Shown in pieces: positions 6,905 to 19,934 of a stretch of 20,402 nt of DNA (position 1 is the first letter of the stretch; the number at the start of each line of letters is the position of its first letter). Origin of the DNA: a virus; IMG/VR virus record IMGVR_UViG_3300007523_000109, positions 1 to 20,402 of that record. The stretch is one strand, 5' to 3'. The notes below the pieces were generated by a model that ran no database searches, was not told where the DNA came from, and was given only the letters and a program-made list of their open reading frames with translations. Position numbers and translations under genes: made by a program.

Positions 6905-7615
6905 TTAGAGCTTTGCGACCGAAACGCCGCGGACAGTGCTGCCCGTGCCGACGATCGTGTCGGTGACACGTACGTACCGCTTGGTGCTACCACTGAACTC
7001 GATGCGCTGCGACGTCACGCCGGTGGCGGCCGTGAACGACGCCAAAGTGGTCCAGGCCGTTGACCCGTCAGCAGAGTGCTCGACGAGAACTGTGTCGGAC
7101 GTGATACCGGTGAGCGAGGTGACGTGTAGGTGCACCAGTGCGCCGACAGTACCGGCCGCTCCGAGGTCTACGTTGGCCGACGTCGTGGTAGTGGTCAGCG
7201 TGTCGTGCCCGGCGCTGAAGCCGAACCCCACACGTCCCGTGCTCTCAGAACTGATCGAGTAGTCGGCGGTCCCGCCCTGCTGTGCCGTCGTATCGAACGA
7301 GGACTGCACGCCCTCGATGAGCCACGCACCGCTGCCGATGTCTGACCCCTCGATCATGAACGTGATCGGGGCCGAGTCTGAACGCCAAGATGCGTACACG
7401 TCGAACGGCTCGTTGGTAGAAGACAGCACATCAAGGGGCCCCGATGCGCTGAACGCCCCCGACTCGGGCCCGATGAGGAACGTCTTGTGAGTGTCGGACA
7501 GCACGGTGACGTCGATCAGCTCGGTTGCCGAGTTGAGTGACGCCGTGCGTACCTGGGCAGAAAGGTTCAGCGAACCTGCCAGGATTCTGGACTTGTAACC
7601 GGGCGTTGTTGCCAT
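6905..7615 (-). CDS. Tail tube protein 1 with C-terminal Ig-like domain (236 aa)
   Basis: The start ATG (7613-7615) shares one base with the stop of the previous gene (TAATG). Residues 1 to about 145 are a tube core (MATTPGYKSRILAG..., E-L-I-D-V-T-V-L, K-T-F-L-I-G, S-A-S-G-P-L-D, Y-S-I-S-S-E-S-T-G) clearly related to the next gene's product. Residues about 150-236 form an added beta domain, with V-E-H-S-A-D-G-S-T-A-W-T-T-L followed by Q-R-I-E-F-S-G-S-T-K-R-Y-V-R-V. That pattern is common in Ig-like or carbohydrate-binding-like decorations of tail tubes and is usually displayed on the virion surface. The gene may supply decorated subunits of a mixed tube, or the main tube protein with the short copy as an accessory. 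I cannot decide between these. Confidence 0.8.
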   Translation of the reverse strand: MATTPGYKSRILAGSLNLSAQVRTASLNSATELIDVTVLSDTHKTFLIGPESGAFSASGPLDVLSSTNEPFDVYASWRSDSAPITFMIEGSDIGSGAWLIEGVQSSFDTTAQQGGTADYSISSESTGRVGFGFSAGHDTLTTTTTSANVDLGAAGTVGALVHLHVTSLTGITSDTVLVEHSADGSTAWTTLASFTAATGVTSQRIEFSGSTKRYVRVTDTIVGTGSTVRGVSVAKL

Positions 7616-8635: not shown

Positions 8636-9178
8636 CTACATCTGGATGATACCGAGTCCGTTGCAGTGCGTAGCGTTATGCCACTGCCGACCTTCTGCTG
8701 CAGCGTACTCCTGAACGGCCACCCTCACCGGGTACATCGGGCGCGCCGGTGCGCCCTCGGGTCGAGCGAGCTCTGTGTCGTGGAACACCATGAGTCCTCC
8801 CGGCCTGACGAGGTGCTGATACAGCTCGATCTCGGCGACGGTCTGATCGTAGAGGTGGCTCGTATCAATGAACACGATGTCGGCGGGCCTCGGCAACTGG
8901 GCAACGATGACCGGGTCAAGGTCGTCGCCCTGAATGAAAGTCCAGTTCGGGTGCTCGCCGATTGGGGGCACCTCGTCAATGTCAACCGACCAGAGGCCCC
9001 CGCCCGTCTGAGAGAGCCCGTGGAGCCACGCTATGGTCGACACTCCGGTGCGGGTTCCGAGCTCGATCACGACCTTGGCGTCGGTGTGCAGCACCATCTC
9101 GACGAACGAGGCGAGGTGGCCCTGAATGTCTGACGGCTCGCCGATCACTTGACGGTACTGAGACAGCAGGTCTTTCAT
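8636..9178 (-). CDS. Class I SAM-dependent methyltransferase, CmcI/Methyltransf_24-like (180 aa)
   Basis: I start at ATG 9176-9178, which overlaps the GT17 stop (ATGA) and has GAAAGG upstream, rather than at an in-frame GTG nine codons earlier. Residues 37-45 (V-I-E-L-G-T-R-T-G) are the glycine-rich SAM-binding motif I. The acidic residues D66 and D68 end strand 2 (L-W-S-V-D-I-D). D105 in I-V-F-I-D-T-S-H fits motif post-II, and V-F-H-D-T (131-135) resembles the metal-binding His-Asp seen in the CmcI or sugar O-methyltransferase group. The enzyme probably transfers a methyl group, and in this cassette the most natural substrate is a sugar put in place by the neighbouring glycosyltransferases. 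The substrate assignment is inference. Confidence 0.85.
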   Translation of the reverse strand: MKDLLSQYRQVIGEPSDIQGHLASFVEMVLHTDAKVVIELGTRTGVSTIAWLHGLSQTGGGLWSVDIDEVPPIGEHPNWTFIQGDDLDPVIVAQLPRPADIVFIDTSHLYDQTVAEIELYQHLVRPGGLMVFHDTELARPEGAPARPMYPVRVAVQEYAAAEGRQWHNATHCNGLGIIQM

Positions 9179-9984
9179 GACGTCGCCTTTCTCGGGCGGA
9201 ACCACGTGTCAGGACAGTGCCCCGCCGTGATGAACTCGGGCCAACCGGCGTCGATGTCGACCGGCTCCATCTTGACGCCGTCGCTGTGAACCCCGTCGCG
9301 CCAGAACGAGAGTCCGTCGGAGATGCCCGCCGAGATCCTGTCGGCCACCTCGGGGTGGCAGAAAGCGCCGAGCTTCTCGGCCGCCCGCTCGGGCCCGCCG
9401 AGCCAGCTGAAGTGCCACCCGCCGTCGGTGATCGGGCAGTGTGCCGAGGTTCGTACGTCACGCATGTGCGTGAACGGCATCCTGGGGTGCCCCGCCATAA
9501 CCGCCGACACCGTGCCGACGACGGTCCCGCACCACTTGATCGGATAGAACCAGTCGACCGCCCAGAAGTGGCCACGCATGCCGATAACGATCAGACGACC
9601 GCCCGGCCTCAAGTTACGCACGACGATCGCCCTCGGGATCTCGTCGACGTCGGACTGCATCAGGGTGTCAGTGGCGGCGGCGTTAATGTCGGCCAGACCC
9701 GCAGCGATGAACTCGCGCTGGGCGTGCTCTCGCTCCCATGAGTCGGGGGCGTCGGCGGCCGTGGGGAGGCCGGTGGCCCGCACGATAGTTAGCTTGTCGA
9801 CCCACCGGTCGAACCTTTCGCCGCCCTGAGCGAGGTACTCGGAGAGGTGGTACGGCTTGGGGTGGTCCTGGTGGTCGACGTCGGCCTCAACAATAATGAA
9901 GTGATCGACGACGTCGTAGAGCTCCATGAGGCGCATCTCAAGAACGTCAAACTCATTGAAAAACATAAAGCTGTCGATGATCAT
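9175..9984 (-). CDS. GT17-family-like glycosyltransferase (269 aa)
   Basis: I take ATG 9982-9984, which overlaps the TGA of the zinc-finger gene (ATGA), over an upstream in-frame start whose extra N-terminal residues look unstructured. The N-terminus M-I-I-D-S-F-M-F-F-N-E-F-D-V-L-E-M-R-L and the following D-H-F-I-I-V-E-A are hallmarks of the GT17 fold (beta-1,4-N-acetylglucosaminyltransferase family). D112-V-D114-E115-I-P is the metal/nucleotide-sugar D-x-D motif. The later phrase R-L-I-V-I-G-M-R-G-H and a W-H-F-S-W-L-G-G motif also agree with the family. In bacteria and phages members add a sugar to glycans or to proteins. It is soluble and should act in the cytoplasm. The cassette suggests a role downstream of the two-domain enzyme. 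Confidence 0.85.
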   Translation of the reverse strand: MIIDSFMFFNEFDVLEMRLMELYDVVDHFIIVEADVDHQDHPKPYHLSEYLAQGGERFDRWVDKLTIVRATGLPTAADAPDSWEREHAQREFIAAGLADINAAATDTLMQSDVDEIPRAIVVRNLRPGGRLIVIGMRGHFWAVDWFYPIKWCGTVVGTVSAVMAGHPRMPFTHMRDVRTSAHCPITDGGWHFSWLGGPERAAEKLGAFCHPEVADRISAGISDGLSFWRDGVHSDGVKMEPVDIDAGWPEFITAGHCPDTWFRPRKATS

Positions 9985-10133
9985 CGGACGTTCCATTTCC
10001 TGAATATCTTGAGCTCGTTGTAGCCGTGAACCTGGCACTCCCGGCTGCAGTATTTCTTACTGCTGCGGAACGGGTACTCGTTCGGGCACCAGATGCACCG
10101 GGTCGGCGCACCCTCGGGAAGTGGGCGGGTCAT
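9981..10133 (-). CDS. Cys4 zinc-finger microprotein (50 aa)
   Basis: The gene is in a gap between the two glycosyltransferase genes. ATG (10131-10133) overlaps the stop of the two-domain enzyme, and TGA (9981-9983) overlaps the start of the GT17 gene, both in ATGA junctions, which is good evidence that it is translated. C13-x-x-C16 and C29-S-R-E-C33 form a Cys4 zinc-binding site of the 'Y-C-S-x-x-C' type. The protein is basic, with the C-terminal end K-I-F-R-K-W-N-V-R. Such mini-zinc fingers are common in actinobacteria and their phages without known role. It may bind nucleic acid or a partner protein of the cassette. Confidence 0.85.
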   Translation of the reverse strand: MTRPLPEGAPTRCIWCPNEYPFRSSKKYCSRECQVHGYNELKIFRKWNVR

Positions 10134-11947
10134 CGCCCCGCCTTGTGCATGGCGATGAGCGGGGCCCGTTGCATGAACGTGGCCTCGTCGGACTCGCTGT
10201 GGCTGACCGCTCGCGTGTACAGCGTGTCGGCCTGTCGGGCGGACTCGTCGCCGTCGTATCCTGGGTGGTGGTGGATGATGCGGCAGTCTTCGACGAACTT
10301 GAAGACGCCTCGGGCCTTGGCCAGGCCGATCACCTCTTTGTCAACGAACCAGTGCCGGTAGCACTCGGGCATCGTGACGCCCGGCCCGTCGAGCGAGCTG
10401 CCCACATCGTTGATGTAGTCACGACGAACGAAGAAGTGGTCAGCGTGACGACCGGCAGCGACGTCGGGGTTGCGGACACGGCCGGGCTCCGAGTCGTTGG
10501 TCCCGATGATGTCGCACTCTTCAGACACGGCGGCGGCGGCTTCGAACCAGCCCGGCGTGAACTCCACGTCGTCGCCGACGATGAGTACCCAGTCGCTATC
10601 TGAACGGCTCACCAGCTCGTTGACGTTCTGGGCGTAGGTCTTGTCGATCGACCCCTGGTGCACCTTGAAGGTAGACCCGAGCGAGTCGAAGAACCGCTTG
10701 GAGTTACCTTCACGCATTGCGGGGACGATGACGTCGACGTCGATCATCTTCGGCTTGAGCGGCGGCGGAGGTGGGCACAGCTCGTTGAGCACGGGCACCC
10801 AGTTCTCGGCGAACACGGTGCGGTAGTCGTAGCCCATGGCGAACCGGCGATGGTCGACGGCAGCGCCCTCGGCCGACAGCTTGTAAGCGCCCTCCAGGGC
10901 CTCCAGCACGTTGACCGTGTACGGCATGATGTAACTGGACGACTGCGACTGGTCCCAGATGAGCTGTCCGTCTACGAGGTGCCCCGAACCGACCAGCTCG
11001 GACTGCGAGCTGAAGTCGGACACGATCACGGGAACCCCGCACGCCTGAGCCTCTATCAGCGGCACGCCGAACCCCTCGCCGTGACTAGGTGCCAGCAGCA
11101 CGTCCATCGTCGAGTACAGCGCCGCCATCATCTCGTCGGGGAGCCCGAGACGGTAGGCGTACTGGTCGGTCCAGATCAGGGCGTGGTTCGGGATCCCGCA
11201 GTGCGTGGCGAGCTCGACCAGATCAAGTCCACCGGCGGCTCCCAGCTTGTCGGAGTGCACCAGCAGCACGGCCTCGTTGTGGCCCTTCCAGAACTGCCCG
11301 AACGCTCGGAACGCTTCGTTGAACCCCTTGCGGTCCTGTGGGTCTTTGTTCATGGCGACCATGCCCACCACGTAGGCGTCCGAGGGGACGTCGAACAGTG
11401 TGTGACCGGTGACGGACGTTCCGTCGCCGGTGGTCACGATCGGCGTGGGCTTAAACACGTCGGTGTCGACGGAAAGTGGAACGTACAGCGGGTCGAGCCC
11501 GGCCTGACGTAGGCCCGCCTCGCCGAACTTCGACATGGCGATCGGGATAGCGCCGGTGGTGTGGAAGAACTCCAGCACCTGCTTCGGGACCGGGTAGTGG
11601 TCGACCGGGGCCCACGCAGCAACTCGAAAGTCGGCCAGCTCTCGGTTCTTGCTGAGCACCCACACGTCGAGAAGCGGAATGATCACACCACCCTGTGGGT
11701 CGCCCTCAAAGAAGTGCATAGCGTTCTGCGAGATCACGTCGGGGCTGTTGGTGAAGTAGCCGGACGGGTAGATGCGGATCTTGTGGCCCCTCGGGGACGT
11801 CCACTGGCCGACCTCGCCCTGCTGGCCGTAGGTCGACCCGACGGCGACTTCGTGACCGGCGTCAGCGAGAAGGTCGGCGAGATGCCTGCACTGCACGCCG
11901 TAGCCGGTGCTCACGGTCGGACTGTTTGAATGGATCAAGAACTTCAT
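10130..11947 (-). CDS. Two-domain glycosyltransferase, GT4 plus GT2-like (605 aa)
   Basis: The start ATG (11945-11947) overlaps the preceding gene's TGA. The N-terminal ~390 residues are a GT4 (GT-B) enzyme, opening M-K-F-L-I-H-S-N-S-P-T-V-S-T-G-Y-G-V-Q. It then has V-P-L-S-V-D-T-D-V-F-K-P before the second Rossmann domain. The nucleotide-sugar site H-G-E-G-F-G-V-P-L-I-E-A-Q near residues 285-300 carries the E-x7-E pair. From about residue 400 a second domain begins with V-D-V-I-V-P-A-M, and has V-L-I-V-G-D-D-V-E-F near residue 454 (D-D-V metal site) and H-H-H-P-G-Y-D near the end, which fits GT2 (GT-A). One chain thus has two transferase folds, likely for consecutive sugars. Phage-encoded glycosyltransferases can decorate virion proteins or host surface polymers. 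Which applies here is unknown. Confidence 0.88.
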   Translation of the reverse strand: MKFLIHSNSPTVSTGYGVQCRHLADLLADAGHEVAVGSTYGQQGEVGQWTSPRGHKIRIYPSGYFTNSPDVISQNAMHFFEGDPQGGVIIPLLDVWVLSKNRELADFRVAAWAPVDHYPVPKQVLEFFHTTGAIPIAMSKFGEAGLRQAGLDPLYVPLSVDTDVFKPTPIVTTGDGTSVTGHTLFDVPSDAYVVGMVAMNKDPQDRKGFNEAFRAFGQFWKGHNEAVLLVHSDKLGAAGGLDLVELATHCGIPNHALIWTDQYAYRLGLPDEMMAALYSTMDVLLAPSHGEGFGVPLIEAQACGVPVIVSDFSSQSELVGSGHLVDGQLIWDQSQSSSYIMPYTVNVLEALEGAYKLSAEGAAVDHRRFAMGYDYRTVFAENWVPVLNELCPPPPPLKPKMIDVDVIVPAMREGNSKRFFDSLGSTFKVHQGSIDKTYAQNVNELVSRSDSDWVLIVGDDVEFTPGWFEAAAAVSEECDIIGTNDSEPGRVRNPDVAAGRHADHFFVRRDYINDVGSSLDGPGVTMPECYRHWFVDKEVIGLAKARGVFKFVEDCRIIHHHPGYDGDESARQADTLYTRAVSHSESDEATFMQRAPLIAMHKAGR

Positions 11948-12254: not shown

Positions 12255-13568
12255 TCAGCTCACGCTTGACTTCATGACGTTGATCGCCGTGAGGTCTTGA
12301 GCGCCCGATGCCGAGCGCCACTTTCCTCTGAAGCCGACCTCGTCGGTAGCGAAGAAGACCGAGTCGTTGCGCTCGATCATCAGGCTGCCGACCGTGCGGA
12401 CGTAGTAGCCCGCCCAGTCGCCGAAGAAGATGGACTTGGAGTTGGACGCCAACGCTGCAATGTTCGGGTCGGTGAACACCGGGTAGCCGAACAACGTGTC
12501 CGGCGTGCGGAGGCCAGCGATGCCGCCCTGGAGGGACGGCTGCCACAGCGGTGCGCCCTCGGTGCCACCGGCACCGTCACGCAGCTTGCGTACCGCACCA
12601 GCGGTGCTGTCCTTCATCAACCAACCTGCCGAGCTTGAGCTGCGATAGGCGTCGTTGATCGAGTATTCCAGGTCAACCAGGTTGCTGAACGTCGGACCAA
12701 CGAGCGATCCACCGGTAGCGGCCGTACCGGCGGCACCCGTGAAGGCGCTCCCGATGAGGTCCGTCATGATGGCGGTGTTGATCTGGCGGCCGACAGCGCG
12801 TCCGATGTCGCGTGACACGAAGCCGACAATGTCGACTCCCGTGTCGCTGACGACCTCGTTAGCAAGCTTGACCAGTTCACCGTACTTGTTGGGGGTCAAG
12901 CTGAGCAGGTTGAACGTCGGGTCGGTTCCAGCGAAGGCGACGCCCTGACTGGATACCTGCGTGGCGATGGAGTGCGCCGTGACCTTCGGGAAGGTCATCG
13001 GCTCGCCGGAGCCGGACGTGATCCGAGTGGTCGGCATACGCAGCGCTGCGATGTTCGCCTCCAGGATCTCGTACAGCGAACGCGCCATGACGGTCGGGAC
13101 CGCTGAAGCGACCGAGCCGGTGTCCCATGCGAGGGCCCTGATCTCGGACGGGCTTGCGCCCATGCGGAGAAGATCGCGCTCACGGGCAACGGCCATGACG
13201 TCGGCACGAATGGCGTTGACGGGCTTGCCGTCATCGTCGTGCGTATCGAAGCGCTTCTCGCCACGAAGGAAGGAGCGGATCTCGACGTTGGCGTCGGAGC
13301 GTGCTGCGTCGGGGTCGACGTCGGCACCGAATGCGATCTCTTGGGCGTTTCGGATGCCCTCGTTCTCGCCATCGATGCGGGCCCGCTCGATCAGTTCGTC
13401 GCGCTCTGAGCCGAGGCTGTCGATGCGTGCGTTGTAGCGGTCCCACTGGGTCCGCTGCTCCATCGACATTTCCTCACCCTTGGGGAGGTCAGAAAGAAAG
13501 CCTTGGGCTTCGGTCCACACGGTGTTGCGGGTTGCGTTGAGGGCTTGCGCCCGTTCCAGAATGTTCAT
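12255..13568 (-). CDS. HK97-fold major capsid protein (437 aa)
   Basis: ATG (13566-13568) has AGGAGG 8 bases upstream, a strong site expected for the most abundant virion protein. The first ~75 residues (M-N-I-L-E-R-A-Q-A-L-N-A..., Q-R-T-Q-W-D-R-Y-N-A-R-I) form a coiled-coil-like scaffolding delta domain, normally removed by the prohead protease encoded just upstream. Residues from about 160 show the HK97 fold: a long helix R-S-L-Y-E-I-L-E-A-N, then T-F-P-K-V, D-I-V-G-F-V-S-R-D-I-G-R-A-V-G-R-Q-I-N-T-A, W-L-M-K-D-S-T-A-G and near the end F-F-G-D-W-A-G-Y-Y-V-R. The cleavage site is not certain. It lies between about residues 80 and 130 by analogy. The gene is downstream of protease and upstream of two hairpins. 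Confidence 0.95.
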   Translation of the reverse strand: MNILERAQALNATRNTVWTEAQGFLSDLPKGEEMSMEQRTQWDRYNARIDSLGSERDELIERARIDGENEGIRNAQEIAFGADVDPDAARSDANVEIRSFLRGEKRFDTHDDDGKPVNAIRADVMAVARERDLLRMGASPSEIRALAWDTGSVASAVPTVMARSLYEILEANIAALRMPTTRITSGSGEPMTFPKVTAHSIATQVSSQGVAFAGTDPTFNLLSLTPNKYGELVKLANEVVSDTGVDIVGFVSRDIGRAVGRQINTAIMTDLIGSAFTGAAGTAATGGSLVGPTFSNLVDLEYSINDAYRSSSSAGWLMKDSTAGAVRKLRDGAGGTEGAPLWQPSLQGGIAGLRTPDTLFGYPVFTDPNIAALASNSKSIFFGDWAGYYVRTVGSLMIERNDSVFFATDEVGFRGKWRSASGAQDLTAINVMKSSVS

Positions 13569-13680: not shown

Positions 13681-14343
13681 CTAGTTGCGCCTCATCATGT
13701 GCTGACGCATGAGCTCGTCAACGGCCGATGGTGACCGGGTCAGGCCGTCGATCGCCCGGCGTAGTTCGTCGGGGTCGACATCATTGGCGAGCATCTCGGT
13801 CATGAACGTGTCGAGCGATCGGACCGTAGCGCTAGTCGTCGGACTCGCCGGGAACGCCACGATCGACACCTCGGCGAGCGAGATCTCTCTGATCGTGCGG
13901 TGCGTCATGTCGGCGTTCCACTCGTCGTCGAGCACTCGCATGCCGATCGACATCTGGTCGATGTCGCCACGCTTCAGCTCGGAGCGGAGAATCTGGACGG
14001 CCGGGTTCGACGGGTCGAGACTCGGTGCGTGGGCTCGGAGGTGCGGGTCGTCAGACAACGTCATCGTGCCGGACTTGGTCCGAGCGAACACGTTGCTGGC
14101 GTCGTGGTTCTTGAGAAGTCGAACGTCGGACCGCTGAGCAATGGTGCGATGGAACGCCCCCTTGTGGATCTCCTCTTCGAACTCACCGAACTTGTCGCGC
14201 ACGGCGTAGCCGACACCGACAACAGATGCGACACCGTCAAACGTGATGGCTCCGCCCCCGTCACGCATCTCAAGATCATCGATGGTGTAAGTGCGGATCT
14301 CTTGACCACCGGTTCGTGCTCGTCGATCGTTCACATCAATCAT
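13681..14343 (-). CDS. Prohead protease, HK97 (S78) family (220 aa)
   Basis: ATG (14341-14343) follows a strong AGGAGG site 7 bases upstream. The fold is seen in F-D-G-V-A-S-V-V-G-V, then E-E-E-I-H-K-G-A-F-H-R-T-I, then the catalytic histidine in L-L-K-N-H80-D and A-R-T-K-S-G-T-M-T-L. S132 in I-D-Q-M-S132-I-G-M is the catalytic serine, and E158 lies in L-A-E-V-S-I-V-A-F-P-A. These three segments are diagnostic. The enzyme is packed in the prohead, removes the capsid delta domain and destroys itself. It lies in the usual place between portal and capsid genes, but is separated from the portal by the 922-residue effector-like gene, whose inter-module linkers could be additional substrates. That last point is inference. 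Confidence 0.95.
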   Translation of the reverse strand: MIDVNDRRARTGGQEIRTYTIDDLEMRDGGGAITFDGVASVVGVGYAVRDKFGEFEEEIHKGAFHRTIAQRSDVRLLKNHDASNVFARTKSGTMTLSDDPHLRAHAPSLDPSNPAVQILRSELKRGDIDQMSIGMRVLDDEWNADMTHRTIREISLAEVSIVAFPASPTTSATVRSLDTFMTEMLANDVDPDELRRAIDGLTRSPSAVDELMRQHMMRRN

Positions 14344-14380: not shown

Positions 14381-14400
14381 ATCCGCATAGACCCGCGGAT
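14381..14400 (-). other. Small hairpin between effector and protease genes
   Basis: ATCCGC and GCGGAT are inverted around an 8-base loop. The structure starts on the last base of the effector stop codon. Nothing like a U-run follows, so it is more likely an RNA processing or translation-separation element than a terminator. Confidence 0.3.
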
Positions 14401-17168
14401 CAGGGCACGCTCATTCGGGGCGACGTGATAGCGTCTCGACCATGATTAGCTCCGACGACAGCATCAGGATGACCGCCGAGATCGGGCGAGGACTCGCCAA
14501 GTCCGAGTCCGCCGTTGCGGGGAAGTCCGCCGAGCTCGGCGCTTCGTGGGACCGACTCGTCGTACAGGTTGCGGAGATCGCCGCCGCTGGGTACATCGTT
14601 GATCCCTCGAAGGAGATCGCCGATCCGGCCGCTTACGACATTCTCACCGGCACCTACGCTGTCTGACCGGGGAACGATAGAGGGCTGACTGCCCTTGTTC
14701 TTGAACGACTCCCACGCCCCAGGATCGATCACGTTGTCGACTCCGTTCTTCTGTTCGAAGATGACCCTCGGCGTGGACGTCATGTCCCACACTCGGATCT
14801 CGTCGAAGAGCTTGAGCTTGACGGCCTGGGGCACGACATCGCTCACAGAGTTGTGAGTGTTCTCGATGTTCTCTGCCGGAACCTTTCGACCGGTTCGCTC
14901 GGCCCGATCGGTGGCCCGCTTGAACGCCTCGTCCTTTGAGATCGTGGCGTACTCGGCGATGACTCGGGCCCCTGACGCCCGGCCTGCAGCGACCTTGGCC
15001 TCAATCTTTGCGATCGACGAGTCGCCGGTCCCGTCAAGGATCGTGTCGTTGCCCGCAGCGAGAGACTCGGCGACCAGTCGAGACGCCATGTCTGACGATT
15101 CTTCGTGAGCGTAAGCGGCGGCGCTGGTGTCGCCCTTCTTCAGGCGGGCCTGGTACTCGGGCAGAGCGGCCTTGGCCTCGTCACTGTCAGACTTGACGGC
15201 GTTGTCGGTCTTGACGAGGCCGGTACTGAGGAGCGTGCCCTTGCCCGCACCGGATCCCCCGCCCATGATCGTGAGGGTCTTGTTGGCGCTCGGTGTGACC
15301 CCGGCCATCTGACCGCTGACGAACGGGTCGTGAACGTCCGATACGCGCCCGGCGCTGTACGTGCGTCGCCCGTCATCGCCGATCGTCGAGTTTGCGGCCT
15401 GAGAGTCGAAGCCGCCGCCCGTCGCACTACCTTTACGTCGACCGTGAACAGACTGCGGAGAGTGACCGCCGTGGCGCACGGCGCTGCGCTCGGGAACCAG
15501 CCACTCGTTGGCCTCGGAGAGCGCCTCAAGCGCCAGCAGGTCCACGTCTTCAGAGCCGTCAGCGAAGAGGGACTCACTGACGTCTTGACCATCGGAGTCG
15601 GTCGACACCCCGATGCTGATTATTTCCCGGCTCATCCCGTTGGACCTCCCATAGCTGTGGCGAGTAGTGACGTCGCCTGTTGATGATTTTCCTGAAGCGT
15701 ACGCTGCGTCGATTTCCGGCGTGGTGAAGTACTCGCCGGGGCCCAGCCCCTTGAGCACTTTGCCCTTGCCGCCACGCGACACGTCGAACCCGGCCGGGCG
15801 GCCGTGAGACTTCTGGTTGTGAGAACCGTGCCGAACGTCTATGACGTGCGGGTCGGCCAGGGTGTGAGCGCCCCTGATGTCGGCGTCCTCAGTGCCGGGC
15901 ATCCTCACCTGCTTGATCCAGTCGTGCTCGGCCTCGTCAATGTTGATGGTCACGGCGTTCTCCGAGCGGTTGGTGACGGCGAAGTCGACGAAGTTGGTCG
16001 GGCTATCGTACAGCACGACCTCGCGCTCAATAATTGAGCCGTTGCCCGACCACGTCGAGACGCCGTATATCTGTGACGCCGGGACGTCGATCGTGATTGT
16101 GCTGCCGCCGAACGAGGCCGCTACAGTCTTCGACTCTGACCACGAGCTGAGCGGGTTGGTCTTGATCGACACGTTCTGCCCGCCAACGTTTGAGATGGTC
16201 GACGATCCCGAGCCCCGGTACAGCGTGACCAGATCGGTCGGCTCGATGCCGCTCTTCGACATCACGCTGGCGGTCTGGCGCTGCGTCGCTTCGCGGACTG
16301 CGCTGAACGAAGTCGGCAACGTGTTGCGGAGAGCGGCGGCGCTGTTTAGGTGGCCCGAGGGGATCCAGCCCATCGAAACGGGAACGGTCAGTGACCCGTT
16401 GGGGGTGCTGGCCTTGAACGTCTTATCGCCGCGGTGCGCTGCGACCTCAAGCTGAGCGGCGACCGACACAGTGGACTGCGAGGAGAGGGCCCATGCGCTG
16501 TTGGTGTTGGAGATCAGTGCCGAGGCCGGGCTGACGCCTGTCGCTGCCTCCAGCCGGGCCGACAGCAACTTAACGTCGCCGACGGCCGGGAGCCCGGCCG
16601 TCTCGCGCTCGCCCTTGAACTCTCGCACGGCCTGGAACACGGCCTCTTTTGAGTCACGGTTGGCGGCGGCGGCGTCGACCTGGTCCGGTGACGAGAACGC
16701 GTTTACCGGTGGTGTGTTCTTCTGGCGGATGTTCATCTGCGTCTCAACGTCGGAGATCTGCATACGCACGCCGAGCGGAATCGAAGGCAGCGATCCGCCG
16801 ACGGGCAGCCCCGCTTCGTTGACCTCGGCGGCGGTTGCCGACGGGAGGCCGAAGTTGACCAATGCCTCGTTGGTAGCGCCGAGGTCGCCAAAGATCCGAC
16901 CGTACGGCTGAGCGTTCAGCTCGTCGGCGACCGCCTGCTTCTCTCGGTCGGACAGGCGGTTCGCCGTCTCGATCGAACCGGCCGACTTGACGTACCCACC
17001 GGCCAGTTCGCTAAGCAGCGGGTTGCCTCCGCCCGATCCTGCCCGGTAGGCACCCTCGCCCGTGAGCCCGTCGACCGGCACTCGGCCGCCGCCGCCGCCG
17101 CCGCGACCGTGAGACTTCTGGTCGTGAGAAGCGTGGCGAACGTCTATGACGTGCGGGTCGGCCGTCAC
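14400..17168 (-). CDS. Multidomain effector: ADP-ribosyltransferase-like plus zeta-toxin-like kinase (922 aa)
   Basis: The GTG (17166-17168) overlaps the portal stop (GTGA). Order: linker A, residues 4-22 (D-P-H-V-I-D-V-R-H-A-S-H-D-Q-K-S-H-G-R). Glycine run. Helical region to about 300. ADP-ribosyltransferase-like core with R318 (L-Y-R-G-S-G), S341-S-W-S344 followed by A-A-S-F-G, and E381-R-E383, the R-S-ExE triad. Linker B, 439-457. A ~105-residue unassigned part. Degenerate linker C, 564-578. A P-loop kinase with G-G-G-S-G-A-G-K643-G-T, S-D-S-D (660-663), L-P-E-Y and I-L-D-G-T-G-D, which is the zeta-toxin pattern (UDP-GlcNAc kinase family). Then a Gly/Ser-rich tail. Its place between portal and protease suggests a packaged protein. 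T4 Alt shows that phages inject ADP-ribosyltransferases. Targets and cleavage are unknown. The last ~75 codons overlap a plus-strand candidate frame. Confidence 0.85.
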   Translation of the reverse strand: MTADPHVIDVRHASHDQKSHGRGGGGGGRVPVDGLTGEGAYRAGSGGGNPLLSELAGGYVKSAGSIETANRLSDREKQAVADELNAQPYGRIFGDLGATNEALVNFGLPSATAAEVNEAGLPVGGSLPSIPLGVRMQISDVETQMNIRQKNTPPVNAFSSPDQVDAAAANRDSKEAVFQAVREFKGERETAGLPAVGDVKLLSARLEAATGVSPASALISNTNSAWALSSQSTVSVAAQLEVAAHRGDKTFKASTPNGSLTVPVSMGWIPSGHLNSAAALRNTLPTSFSAVREATQRQTASVMSKSGIEPTDLVTLYRGSGSSTISNVGGQNVSIKTNPLSSWSESKTVAASFGGSTITIDVPASQIYGVSTWSGNGSIIEREVVLYDSPTNFVDFAVTNRSENAVTINIDEAEHDWIKQVRMPGTEDADIRGAHTLADPHVIDVRHGSHNQKSHGRPAGFDVSRGGKGKVLKGLGPGEYFTTPEIDAAYASGKSSTGDVTTRHSYGRSNGMSREIISIGVSTDSDGQDVSESLFADGSEDVDLLALEALSEANEWLVPERSAVRHGGHSPQSVHGRRKGSATGGGFDSQAANSTIGDDGRRTYSAGRVSDVHDPFVSGQMAGVTPSANKTLTIMGGGSGAGKGTLLSTGLVKTDNAVKSDSDEAKAALPEYQARLKKGDTSAAAYAHEESSDMASRLVAESLAAGNDTILDGTGDSSIAKIEAKVAAGRASGARVIAEYATISKDEAFKRATDRAERTGRKVPAENIENTHNSVSDVVPQAVKLKLFDEIRVWDMTSTPRVIFEQKNGVDNVIDPGAWESFKNKGSQPSIVPRSDSVGAGENVVSGRIGDLLRGINDVPSGGDLRNLYDESVPRSAELGGLPRNGGLGLGESSPDLGGHPDAVVGANHGRDAITSPRMSVP
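14429..14434 (+). promoter_or_regulatory. Leaderless-type -10 box for the plus-strand candidate
   Basis: TAGCGT (TAnnnT form) ends 7 bases before ATG at 14442, the spacing of leaderless actinobacterial genes. No ribosome-binding site or -35 box is clear. It supports the nested plus-strand frame only weakly. Confidence 0.25.
14442..14666 (+). CDS. Candidate nested antisense gene (74 aa)
   Basis: This frame lies wholly inside the 3' end of the effector gene on the opposite strand, codon-aligned with it. By my hand count about 80% of its third codon positions are G or C, against about 62% for the minus-strand frame in the same stretch, whereas in this genome high G+C at third positions marks real genes. 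The product (M-I-S-S-D-D-S-I-R-M-T-A-E-I-G-R-G-L-A-K) looks like a soluble two- or three-helix protein with a Y-I-V-D-P-S-K-E-I end. The effector's sense sequence becomes Gly/Ser-rich and unstructured just where this frame ends. No family is recognised. An antitoxin of the kinase module is one idea, purely speculative. A shadow frame remains possible because both strands show the R-N-Y pattern. Confidence 0.35.
   Translation: MISSDDSIRMTAEIGRGLAKSESAVAGKSAELGASWDRLVVQVAEIAAAGYIVDPSKEIADPAAYDILTGTYAV
15799..15858. repeat. 60-bp direct repeat, copy 2
   Basis: It matches 17104-17163 at 56 of 60 positions and encodes linker B of the effector protein. The copies are 1305 bases apart, which is 435 codons, so recombination between them would remove the ADP-ribosyltransferase module without shifting the frame. 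Confidence 0.9.
17104..17163. repeat. 60-bp direct repeat, copy 1
   Basis: First copy of the linker-coding repeat, at the start of the effector gene (linker A). It differs from the other copy at four positions. It is followed in the gene by a run of GGC-type codons that gives six glycines. Confidence 0.9.
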
Positions 17169-18331
17169 GGGGCCCCCTCGTTGGGGTCGACCCCGGGATC
17201 CGCCGGTGCCTCGGGCGGCGGGTTCATCTCGTCCTTCTCGGCCTGGGTCAGCGGGCGAAGTTCTTCCAACTGGCGGACCTCGTCGACCGTGATGAACTTC
17301 TGCTCCAGACCGAGCTTGTAGGCGTCGTAGCGGCTCTTCGTGTCGCCGCGCAGCGTGCTGTTCACGTTGAACTTTACGAACTGCTTCCTCGGAAGGAGCT
17401 CACTGAACGCCTTCTCAAGACGCACGATCCACGGCATGAACGTGACCTGGACCCGGCGCACGTTGCGCTGGTCAAGGTTGGCGTAACTGATCGACGACCC
17501 ATCGATCGGGATGCCGAGGTCGGTCGGATCCAGCAGGAACAACTGACCAGCGATCTCGGCGGCCGAGTACTTGCGCGTCTGGAGGAACTGCATCTGCTCG
17601 GAGTTAACGCCGGTCTGTTTCCACGTACCGCCGTCGTCGATGACGCCGGGCATGCCCTTGCCTGATCGCGATCGCATCTTCTTCCACTGCATCGCCATGG
17701 CGCGCTTCGTGGCGGGCTGTGCGATGCGTGGGAGCTCGATGACGCCCGGCATGTTGCCGTCGGCGTTGAAGAAGTTCGATCCGAACTCCATGGCGGCGAG
17801 GCCGAGGCCGATCGTCTGGCGGGCGTGCTCGATCGGCGAGAGGCCGACGAGCTCACCGGGGAGCATCATGCCTGCTATGTGGAGAACGTTGGTGCGGACC
17901 CGGCCCTCAACGCGAATGACCTTGCGCCTACCCTCGGCGGTGACGGCCACCTTCTCGTCGGCGATCGGAATGAGCTCACGTAAGCGCCCATCAGAATCGA
18001 ACGTCAAAGCGATGTAGCTGTTGCCGTAGAGAAGCAGAGCGGTCAGCACCTGCGAAACAAACGACAACCAATCGAGATCGTTCGACGGACGATAGAGCCA
18101 CAGCGGCGGCTCGGTAGCTACGCGCTCCTCGCCCTGCTGCCGGTATGTGTCGATCGGCATCGTGGCGATCGACTCAGAGATCATACGCACCGAGCCGTGC
18201 ACGGCCATGAGCTGCATGGCGGTCGTCGCCGTGACGGCCATGCCCGACGCAACGTCGTCGGATCCGTCGGTGAACCACGACCAGGTCGTGCTCCTCTCTT
18301 CGGGTTGATCGGTTCTGCGTAGGCCCAGCAT
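17165..18331 (-). CDS. Portal protein, HK97 gp3-like (388 aa)
   Basis: The frame is open further upstream, but I use ATG 18329-18331: it has GGAGA about 8 bases before it, shares one base with the stop of the preceding microprotein, and begins M-L-G-L-R-R-T-D, whereas the extra upstream residues are Arg-rich antisense-like sequence. Family features include V-H-G-S-V-R-M-I-S-E-S-I-A-T-M-P near residue 45, L-L-L-Y-G-N-S-Y-I-A-L near 100, F-F-N-A-D-G-N-M-P-G-V-I, and Q-F-L-Q-T-R-K-Y-S-A-A-E-I-A. The C-terminal tail is Pro/Glu-rich (N-P-P-P-E-A-P-A-D-P-G). The portal is a dodecameric ring at one vertex that carries terminase, DNA and the adaptor. The next gene begins in a GTGA overlap. Confidence 0.95.
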   Translation of the reverse strand: MLGLRRTDQPEERSTTWSWFTDGSDDVASGMAVTATTAMQLMAVHGSVRMISESIATMPIDTYRQQGEERVATEPPLWLYRPSNDLDWLSFVSQVLTALLLYGNSYIALTFDSDGRLRELIPIADEKVAVTAEGRRKVIRVEGRVRTNVLHIAGMMLPGELVGLSPIEHARQTIGLGLAAMEFGSNFFNADGNMPGVIELPRIAQPATKRAMAMQWKKMRSRSGKGMPGVIDDGGTWKQTGVNSEQMQFLQTRKYSAAEIAGQLFLLDPTDLGIPIDGSSISYANLDQRNVRRVQVTFMPWIVRLEKAFSELLPRKQFVKFNVNSTLRGDTKSRYDAYKLGLEQKFITVDEVRQLEELRPLTQAEKDEMNPPPEAPADPGVDPNEGAP

Positions 18332-18468
18332 CAGCGCGTCTCCATCGCAAGACCGGCGTACACCAGTGCCAGTGATAGTCCGATCATCCCGCCGCCGACA
18401 TCGGCGACTAGGAACCCACTCACGGGCAGACCGATCAGGCCGAGGGCCTGCAACAGTGCTCCGGTCAT
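18331..18468 (-). CDS. Membrane microprotein between terminase and portal (45 aa)
   Basis: A short gene filling the gap between large terminase and portal. ATG (18466-18468) overlaps the terminase TGA (ATGA), and its TGA shares one base with the portal ATG (TGATG). The product is M-T-G-A-L-L-Q-A-L-G-L-I-G-L-P-V-S-G-F, then a polar turn D-V-G-G-G and a second hydrophobic stretch I-G-L-S-L-A-L-V-Y-A-G-L-A, ending M-E-T-R. This gives two short hydrophobic segments around a Gly-rich turn, a possible membrane hairpin. It has no recognised family. Small membrane proteins in this position occur in actinophages without known function. Coupling on both sides supports its reality. Confidence 0.8.
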   Translation of the reverse strand: MTGALLQALGLIGLPVSGFLVADVGGGMIGLSLALVYAGLAMETR

Positions 18469-19934
18469 TCGTCATCCTCCAGCCAGTCGTCCAGCGACGT
18501 CACGCCGCCGAGGTACTCGGTGGCTTCACTTAGGGTATCAAGACGGCCGTGTGCCATAGTGGACGTCGTCAAAGGTGTTATATCGATCTCGCTCGACCTT
18601 CGGCTCCAGTACTGCCCGCCGTCGCTGTGATTCTTGAGCTTCACAGCGGCCAACGCCAACCGGATATTCGGATCTCCTCGGTGCCGGAGCTGCGGTGCCT
18701 CCCCGCGTGTAGCGTCGATGAACCGACCGGTGGCGGCCGTGTAGTCGGCCGTCGACATGACGTCAACCGGGATCGGTGGCACGGCGGCAGCGAATGAGTC
18801 GATGAACGCACCGGCCGGACTACCCGCCACAATAATGATGGACGTCTTGTGACCCTCAGCGAGCTCACGCGCACGGGCGAGTACCCAGTCCGTTCCAGGG
18901 CGGCGATCTCTGACCGCAACATGGCGGAGGCCATCGCTGCGGTGACCAGAGATACCGAACGTCGACCACTGCCGATCAGGTGAGACGTCGAGCGCCAGGC
19001 GGACACCCTCGTCGACCGCCATCGATTTACCATCGGTCAGAGTCTCCCACACGTCGAGAGGGATCGGAACGTCAGCCTGAACGCCCTCGTCCTCGGGGAC
19101 ACCGAGGTGCTCTCTTGCGAACTCGGCGGGGTCGAGCGTGGCGAACGCCATCTCGATGAGGTCGGGGTCGATGATGAGGCCGAGAGACGGGTTGGCCCGG
19201 CACCACGACGAGCGGTCCGACGGCGTGACGTCGGCGTCGTTGCCCCATTCGTAATACAGCAAGCGGCCGCCCTCGTGGGCCCGGCCTCGGTTCATCACCT
19301 TTCGGAGAACGGGAGAATCCTTGTGCGGTGCCGACGAGGTGTACCAGATCGACGGATTCTCTCGGGCCATCATGGTCGGCAGAACGGCACCCATAGTCAC
19401 GTTCGACAGAACGAACGACTCGTCGAGGTAAAGCGTGTCGGAGCTGAACCCGCGACCGCTCGTTCCGTTGCGAGCGAGAAACTTGAGGCGTGATCCGTTC
19501 CTGAGCATGATCCCCTGGTCGCCCGCACCCGTTCGAATGATCTTGACGTCCTTCATCAACATGCGAGACCCCTCGACAAGCGACTTGATACGCAGGAAGT
19601 GCTCCATGGCGGTTTTGTACTCGTGCGCCGTGTGGATCTGCAACGGCTCGTTCAAGACAAAGAGGCCGATGAGCTGGCGCGCCTCAAGGATCGAGCCCTT
19701 CCCGTTCTGACGGGCCACGACGAGGCCCGTCTCGGTGGCGGCGAACTTGGTCGGGTCGCTCGCTCGGACCTTGATCGAGTCGACGAGAACGTCGAGCTGC
19801 CAGTCAAAGAGATGGAGCCCGCACATCTCGACGAGGTCGAGTGCGGCGTCGGTGAGCGGGTTACGAACTGCGTCGACTGGACTGTGCTTGGCGCTCGGTT
19901 CTTGACTTCCGAGCAGCGGCGAGAGCGTCTGCAA
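18465..19934 (-). CDS. terL: Large terminase subunit (489 aa)
   Basis: Start is TTG (19932-19934), chosen because AAGGAG lies 8 bases upstream and residues before L-T-D-A-A-L-D-L-V-E-M-C-G-L are needed. The ATPase part holds G-L-H-L-F-D-W-Q, the Walker A loop A74-R-Q-N-G-K79-G-S, Walker B in L-Y-L-D171-E172, and R-N-G-S-R-L-K-F-L-A-R. The C-terminal part begins near residue 310 with V-R-L-A-L-D-V-S-P-D, the first acidic residue of the RNase H-like nuclease, and continues to D-I-T-P-L-T-T-S-T-M-A-H. The enzyme packages DNA through the portal and cuts the concatemer. The Q-N-G-K-G loop is typical of actinobacteriophage terminases. It overlaps the small-subunit gene by about 74 bases and the microprotein gene by four. 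Confidence 0.95.
   Translation of the reverse strand: MQTLSPLLGSQEPSAKHSPVDAVRNPLTDAALDLVEMCGLHLFDWQLDVLVDSIKVRASDPTKFAATETGLVVARQNGKGSILEARQLIGLFVLNEPLQIHTAHEYKTAMEHFLRIKSLVEGSRMLMKDVKIIRTGAGDQGIMLRNGSRLKFLARNGTSGRGFSSDTLYLDESFVLSNVTMGAVLPTMMARENPSIWYTSSAPHKDSPVLRKVMNRGRAHEGGRLLYYEWGNDADVTPSDRSSWCRANPSLGLIIDPDLIEMAFATLDPAEFAREHLGVPEDEGVQADVPIPLDVWETLTDGKSMAVDEGVRLALDVSPDRQWSTFGISGHRSDGLRHVAVRDRRPGTDWVLARARELAEGHKTSIIIVAGSPAGAFIDSFAAAVPPIPVDVMSTADYTAATGRFIDATRGEAPQLRHRGDPNIRLALAAVKLKNHSDGGQYWSRRSSEIDITPLTTSTMAHGRLDTLSEATEYLGGVTSLDDWLEDDE

Follow-up and report, generated by a model that had tools for sequence, protein, structure and literature searches.

In bacteriophage T4, the ADP-ribosyltransferase (ART) Alt is carried in the head and injected, and a single N-terminal leader, the capsid targeting sequence, addresses proteins to the head. 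Polyvalent proteins, a class from phages and conjugative elements, are described to include multi-enzyme proteins associated with the head and containing ARTs, as well as fusions of MuF with zeta-like kinases (PMC5512222). MuF polymorphic toxins are encoded directly downstream of the portal gene and end in a C-terminal toxin-type domain, ART being among the toxin types (PMC5576092; both sources as far as their available parts go). Here, we analyzed a gene for a 922-amino-acid (aa) protein in a viral DNA stretch of 20,402 nt (IMG/VR record IMGVR_UViG_3300007523_000109, positions 1 to 20,402; hereafter the window). The protein joins a probable ART to a zeta-toxin-type kinase, and a short recurrent tag stands ahead of each of its modules.

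Like the polyvalent proteins (PMC5512222), the window protein unites unrelated enzyme domains in one polypeptide (at least two, the zeta kinase and the probable ART) and is encoded among late head and other virion genes; in make-up it is a polyvalent protein, judged by the available parts of the literature (PMC5512222; PMC9503650). A reading made earlier from the sequence alone (the sequence-only reading) had named the two enzymes as we find them but missed the tag before each module, and had called the combination unfamiliar: proteins of this kind are already known, although we did not find the exact ART–zeta pairing described in the available parts of PMC5512222. In the same parts, a short tag before modules goes unmentioned, and neither "linker" nor "short motif" appears as a term anywhere in the main text. 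The window protein shares with MuF polymorphic toxins (PMC5576092, available parts) the place directly downstream of the portal gene and a toxin-type domain, and differs from them in having no MuF match and in carrying several toxin modules. We propose, giving it an even chance, that the tag is a docking or packaging label on a head-region multi-enzyme effector.

Results

The tag in the window and in other viral loci

The tag follows the pattern [KR]H..(..)HDQ[KS][TS]HG and occurs in three copies, each ahead of one module (Table 1). Chance was considered as its source and rejected, with two perfect matches in the window (up to three mismatches being allowed) against 0.15 expected; yet two of 100 shuffles reached two. 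Two DNA patterns, returning 18 and 102 viral stretches, were used to collect further loci. Once repeats were removed, the set comprised 203 tagged open reading frames (ORFs) with 310 strict tags in 100 viral loci, not all of them independent contigs. In loci L005–L121, we counted 349 tags, compared with none in shuffled proteins; these loci had been gathered by the tag, and hence the count is not independent.

Results on copy number, tag spacing, first versus internal copies, likeness within contigs, mosaicism, and modules are based on 146 nonredundant ORFs of at least 150 aa. Most carried one copy (92), and the remainder two (27), three (21), four (5), or five (1); tags in the same ORF were 116–609 aa apart (86 gaps). 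First and internal copies were about equally conserved (upstream KH: 0.99 and 0.96; strict core: 0.89 and 0.94), which favors a docking label. Tags were more alike within a contig (0.647, 421 pairs) than between contigs (0.515, 26,241 pairs; best of 300 permutations: 0.534), as expected if each phage has a specific partner for its tag.

The tag might instead be a mere joint, i.e., a flexible linker whose DNA is a recombination site and which spread by duplication, with no partner. Copies 1 and 2 in the window do form a 61-nt direct repeat (93% identity, 1305 bp between them) with 18 of 20 third codon positions identical, and modules are shuffled at tags (see below). Between contigs, however, third codon positions agreed at only 0.465 where the tag residues agree, so that the protein is kept while the codons differ. 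When 60 of the 146 tagged proteins were aligned, every column conserved at ≥90% was a tag residue, and a passive linker need not retain K, H, H, D, Q, H, and G at that level in 60 otherwise unalike proteins. We therefore consider a mere joint improbable.

The recurrent tag appears to be undescribed, within the literature searchable as text: neither it nor the second tag type introduced below was found in text searches of the open-licence PMC literature, where sequences in figures are invisible. It was not found in the PDB, and tblastn with the tag consensus against isolated phages, for which such short queries are insensitive, returned nothing or three weak matches to repressor genes. Array proteins searched against isolated phages matched only in their module or MuF parts, except one without a match. 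PHROG 2859, a family of unassigned function, matched 38 of 60 scanned tagged proteins, and its match in L051 extends over the tag located at residue 150; PHROG may thus already contain the tag without a name for it. Variant tags resembling copy 3 of the window are shared by two ORFs per contig in L024 (HPDQKVHG and HPSQKVHG) and L104 (HADQSVHG twice).

Exchange and content of modules

The tag is the border of modules exchanged as cassettes. We collected mosaic alignments between nonredundant tagged proteins, at least 60 aa long and spanning no more than 60% of the shorter protein. With tags masked, 1.9% of them contained a tag, compared with 20–26% under equal shifted masks (five runs), and 31.5% started within 30 aa of a tag, compared with 17–21%. 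With no masks, a tag lay inside 13.4% of the alignments, compared with 36.7% for shifted labels. Cutting the proteins at their tags yielded 293 modules with a median length of 221 aa; they fell into 100 families, of which 65 had a single member. An upstream module was in view for 21 of the 24 families with at least three members, and 16 had at least two different upstream modules. Sixteen of the 35 multi-member families occurred in both one-tag and multi-tag proteins.

The module types linked to tags are ARTs, zeta kinases, metallopeptidases, and acetyltransferases. Sixty of the 146 proteins, picked by copy number and length, were scanned for known families. Pfam matches (E ≤ 0.01, some below the family cut-off) comprised ADPrib_exo_Tox, Phage_Mu_F, and SprT-like (7 each), DUF3626 and Acetyltransf_7 (5 each), DRAT (3), Zeta_toxin (2), and PARP, Arr-ms, and KptA (one each); PHROG added Alt-like ARTs in 6. 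These are typical host-acting enzymes, a content that again favors a docking label.

Genomic context and the question of cleavage

A MuF match was in view at 59 of 111 loci with a tagged ORF, and in 24 the MuF ORF was itself tagged. The nearest tagged ORF lay within 500 bp of MuF in 57 of the 59 (duplicates included), always on the same strand. Where MuF is in view, tag arrays start at or beside its gene; this position, together with that of the window gene between portal and protease, favors a docking label. Among 46 contigs of at least 20 kb, mostly fragments, MuF (PF04233) was present in 34, the S78 protease and the HK97 capsid protein in 3 each, ClpP in 2, and the SPP1 portal in none. A sibling of the window is among the three S78/HK97 contigs. 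Having genes for S78 and HK97 but lacking a MuF match, the window lineage is atypical of tag-bearing phages.

These counts bear on a second explanation, in which the tag serves chiefly for proteolytic processing: cleavage at every copy, whether in the procapsid or following injection, would release the individual enzymes from the polyprotein. Each module has one copy, and all copies are kept; tag 3 lies in a stretch predicted to be disordered (predicted local distance difference test, pLDDT, <50 at residues 1–26 of a 271-aa segment); and the S78 protease gene adjoins the effector gene in the window lineage. HExxH motifs occur in tagged ORFs of 37 of the 100 loci (44 motifs, against 4 in shuffled proteins), and metallopeptidase processing of polyvalent proteins has been proposed (PMC5512222, available parts). 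However, the window has no credible HExxH metallopeptidase gene, S78 and ClpP are as scarce as stated (an absence from fragments counting for little), and one-module genes are headed by a tag, too. An S78 cleavage site as a general rule was rejected on the S78 count, and cleavage as the main role of the tag seems to us rather unlikely. The one-tag genes, in 47 of the 146 ORFs with the tag near the N-terminus (≤80 aa from the upstream stop), favor a docking label, because they carry it though they have no modules to separate.

We also searched the genomes of 84,980 species with a DNA form of the tag that is present in 101 of loci L005–L121. It matched 13 stretches, and one, in Sphaerisporangium album (L134), was judged genuine by its frame and surroundings. 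This one-module gene belongs to a phage region, where it lies downstream of MuF, and combines a tag (EH in place of KH/RH) with an ART (PF03496, E = 7.8e-15). In the viral record identical to this region, the MuF gene scored E = 2.4e-10 and no S78 match was found. With one genuine match in 84,980 species, tag arrays look rare in prophages, and we infer that they reside mainly in non-integrating phages.

A second tag

Zeta kinases are common in viruses (at least 347 loci confirmed); of these loci, gathered without reference to the tag, 80 were kept and 79 analyzed. They contained a second motif, QPRDxxGRF, 17 times against 0 in shuffled proteins. A crude cysteine pattern for MuF, on which we place no weight, matched none of the 79 zeta proteins. 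QPRDxxGR[FW] arrays resemble those of the HDQ tag: in L225 (4034–11131), one ORF has three copies and three ORFs have one each. That a second tag type builds similar arrays favors a docking label. How widely the second motif occurs was gauged with one strict pattern (11 stretches); repeats were also seen in L159, L172, L184, and L194. The only joint occurrence of the two tag types was in the Sphaerisporangium region, at 2 of 203 loci that share the same DNA and represent one prophage; this count is confounded by how the loci were collected. In that region (L134, 5324–7999), the second motif appears as HPRASDGRFG in an ORF that overlaps the last part of the tagged ART gene.

The two enzymes

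Module 3 is a zeta-toxin-type kinase by fold and family, an assignment well supported by profile and model, and is predicted to phosphorylate UDP-N-acetyl sugars. Pfam Zeta_toxin (PF06414) matched aa 625–799 (E = 9.3e-23; 81.1 bits, cut-off 22.3), AAA_33 matched the kinase part above its cut-off (7.6e-9), and PHROG 16619 (minor head protein) matched aa 601–810 (1.8e-32). The equivalents of K643, D663, H688, E690, S692, and D712 (numbers converted from the segment) were invariant in a 32-row alignment. The structure model was confident (pLDDT 89.9; predicted template modeling score 0.85), and its best Foldseek match was 3q8x, a zeta toxin with substrate (1e-10). The P-loop kinase fold anticipated by the sequence-only reading was thus borne out by the profile comparison and structure prediction it had suggested, down to the invariant K643. 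The window kinase has the fold, P-loop, and other family residues of zeta/PezT toxins (PF06414), and differs from them in being part of a larger head-region protein and in its identity of ~16% in structural alignments.

Against the PDB, the kinase family profile retrieved zeta (1GVN, 3.5e-15), PezT (1e-10), Pnkp1 (5.3e-8), and AvrRxo1 (3.7e-6). AvrRxo1 phosphorylates nicotinamide adenine dinucleotide (NAD). If the window kinase did the same in place of a cell-wall sugar nucleotide, both enzymes would act on NAD metabolism or NAD-based defense; the profile covers AvrRxo1 over almost its full length, and Foldseek ranks it at 7.6e-10. This is doubtful, given that zeta and PezT outscore AvrRxo1 in the profile comparison.

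Among isolated phages, the whole 922-aa protein matched only cyanophage PSS2, and only in the kinase part. The PSS2 minor head protein (PHROG 16619; three records of one phage) is 33.5% identical over aa 612–870, the zeta part; it showed no ART or tag match, and a relaxed HDQ-type pattern was not found in the PSS2 reading frames.

Module 1 very probably contains a divergent, DRAT-like ART of the R-S-E type, as predicted from its residues. Five phage proteins were aligned, with relatives drawn from tag loci (L012, L089, L098, L007) and from a profile search (L138). Invariant in the five rows were R318, G319, P339, S341, S342, S344, A350, F353, G375, G377, E381, and E383, which include the whole R318/S341–S344/E381–E383 signature on which the sequence-only reading was based. 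DRAT matched four of the five aligned proteins at E ≤ 0.1, and L138 passed the cut-off (8.2e-7, 28.9 bits). The comparison with ART families that had been suggested was successful in this one relative, but not for the window protein (E = 0.0011; 18.7 bits, cut-off 25); no ART was found with the family profile in the PDB, and the structure model was poor (pLDDT 32.6). The earlier claim of two toxin-type enzymes in one polypeptide is therefore well supported for the kinase and probable for the ART.

The gene and its neighbors

The 922-residue frame reported earlier next to the portal gene and ahead of the prohead protease is real, with Pfam-supported neighbors (Table 1). The sibling contig, L002, is 99.96% identical to the window over the 11,000 bases compared, and was the sole relative of the C-terminal tail (query 810–922) among the loci searched. 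In L002 the same gene has a stop at codon 29 (L002 5097–5099, with L008), directly past the first tag, where the window copy is open; this may be a strain difference or an assembly error. All isolated-phage matches to the window portal and capsid proteins were below 60% identity.

Table 1. Features of the window protein gene and the adjoining head genes
Feature	Residues	Position in window	Strand	Remarks
Whole gene	922 aa	14400..17168	minus	GTG start; 4-nt GTGA overlap with portal stop
Portal gene		17165..18475	minus	directly upstream; Pfam Phage_portal 6.6e-62
Prohead protease (S78)		13681..14343	minus	directly downstream; Pfam Peptidase_S78 2.4e-31
HK97-type major capsid protein		12255..13568	minus	Pfam Phage_capsid 4.4e-38
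Tag copy 1, ADPHVIDVRHASHDQKSHGR	3-22	17103..17162	minus	
Module 1	23-437	15858..17102	minus	fold-unassigned region, then probable ART; invariant residues in five relatives
Probable ART core	290-435	15864..16301	minus	DRAT matches
ART signature codons	R318; S341-S344; E381; E383	16215-16217; 16137-16148; 16026-16028; 16020-16022	minus	
Tag copy 2	438-457	15798..15857	minus	
Module 2	458-560	15489..15797	minus	no Pfam, PHROG or NCBIfam match
Tag copy 3, variant HSPQSVHG	561-577	15438..15488	minus	low-confidence linker in model
Module 3, zeta-toxin-type kinase	589-826	14691..15404	minus	P-loop K643 at 15240-15242
C-terminal tail	828-922	14403..14687	minus	

Three sugar-modification genes lie between the capsid and head-tail genes (8636–11947, minus strand) and encode an O-methyltransferase (Methyltransf_24, 4.9e-15), a family-17 glycosyltransferase (3.6e-19), and a protein with GT1/GT2-type glycosyltransferase matches; they possibly serve to modify the particle. 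A tail-region protein (6905–7615, minus strand) has a C-terminal F5/8 type C (galactose-binding-like) domain (1.1e-6).

Discussion

Judged by its position and relatives, the window protein is most likely a virion-borne effector. It would be produced together with the portal, enter the procapsid, and be delivered with the DNA. A phage-specific partner inside the head, perhaps the portal, MuF, scaffold, or capsid protein, would bind the tag, and any enzyme attached to a tag would thereby become head cargo. Once in the cell, the ART would transfer ADP-ribose to a host protein, and the kinase, like zeta toxins, would phosphorylate a nucleotide sugar. The T4 capsid targeting sequence is likewise a short peptide directing proteins to the head, the role we propose for the tag; the tag differs from it in sequence and in being repeated between modules.

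Several observations weigh against a docking label on a two-enzyme effector. MuF (PF04233, the sole MuF model tested) was found neither in the window protein nor in the sibling contig, and none of the head families tested could be the common partner of the tag, with HK97 capsid, ClpP, and SPP1 portal in only 3, 2, and 0 of the 46 longer contigs, most of which are fragments. Within 150 aa upstream of the zeta module, the 79 listed zeta loci had the HDQ tag in 3, QPRDxxGRF in 6, and neither in 70, so that phage zeta modules in general need no tag. For the probable ART, the top Foldseek matches of the model, which included PARP12 chains, were not significant (E ≥ 1.1). The likeness of tags within a contig could also arise if cassettes were duplicated together with their tags; in the window, copies 1 and 2 are a recent DNA repeat. 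Finally, one label per polypeptide would be enough for packaging, yet each module has one.

Still more tentatively, the tag may be a general, exchangeable head-cargo label: phages would assemble arrays of host-acting enzymes without a fixed size by attaching enzymes to the tag, each lineage would match its own tag (HDQKTHG or QPRDxxGRF) to its own partner, and recombination at the tag would add or swap cassettes.

The role of the tag can be tested either way, because a named bacterial genome, that of S. album, harbors an ART gene with a tag within a phage region. If the tag is a processing site, it would show how multi-enzyme proteins are split. If it is an address label, it would explain how enzymes are loaded into the heads of many tailed phages outside the T4 group, and it would provide a sequence handle for many unannotated candidate effectors.

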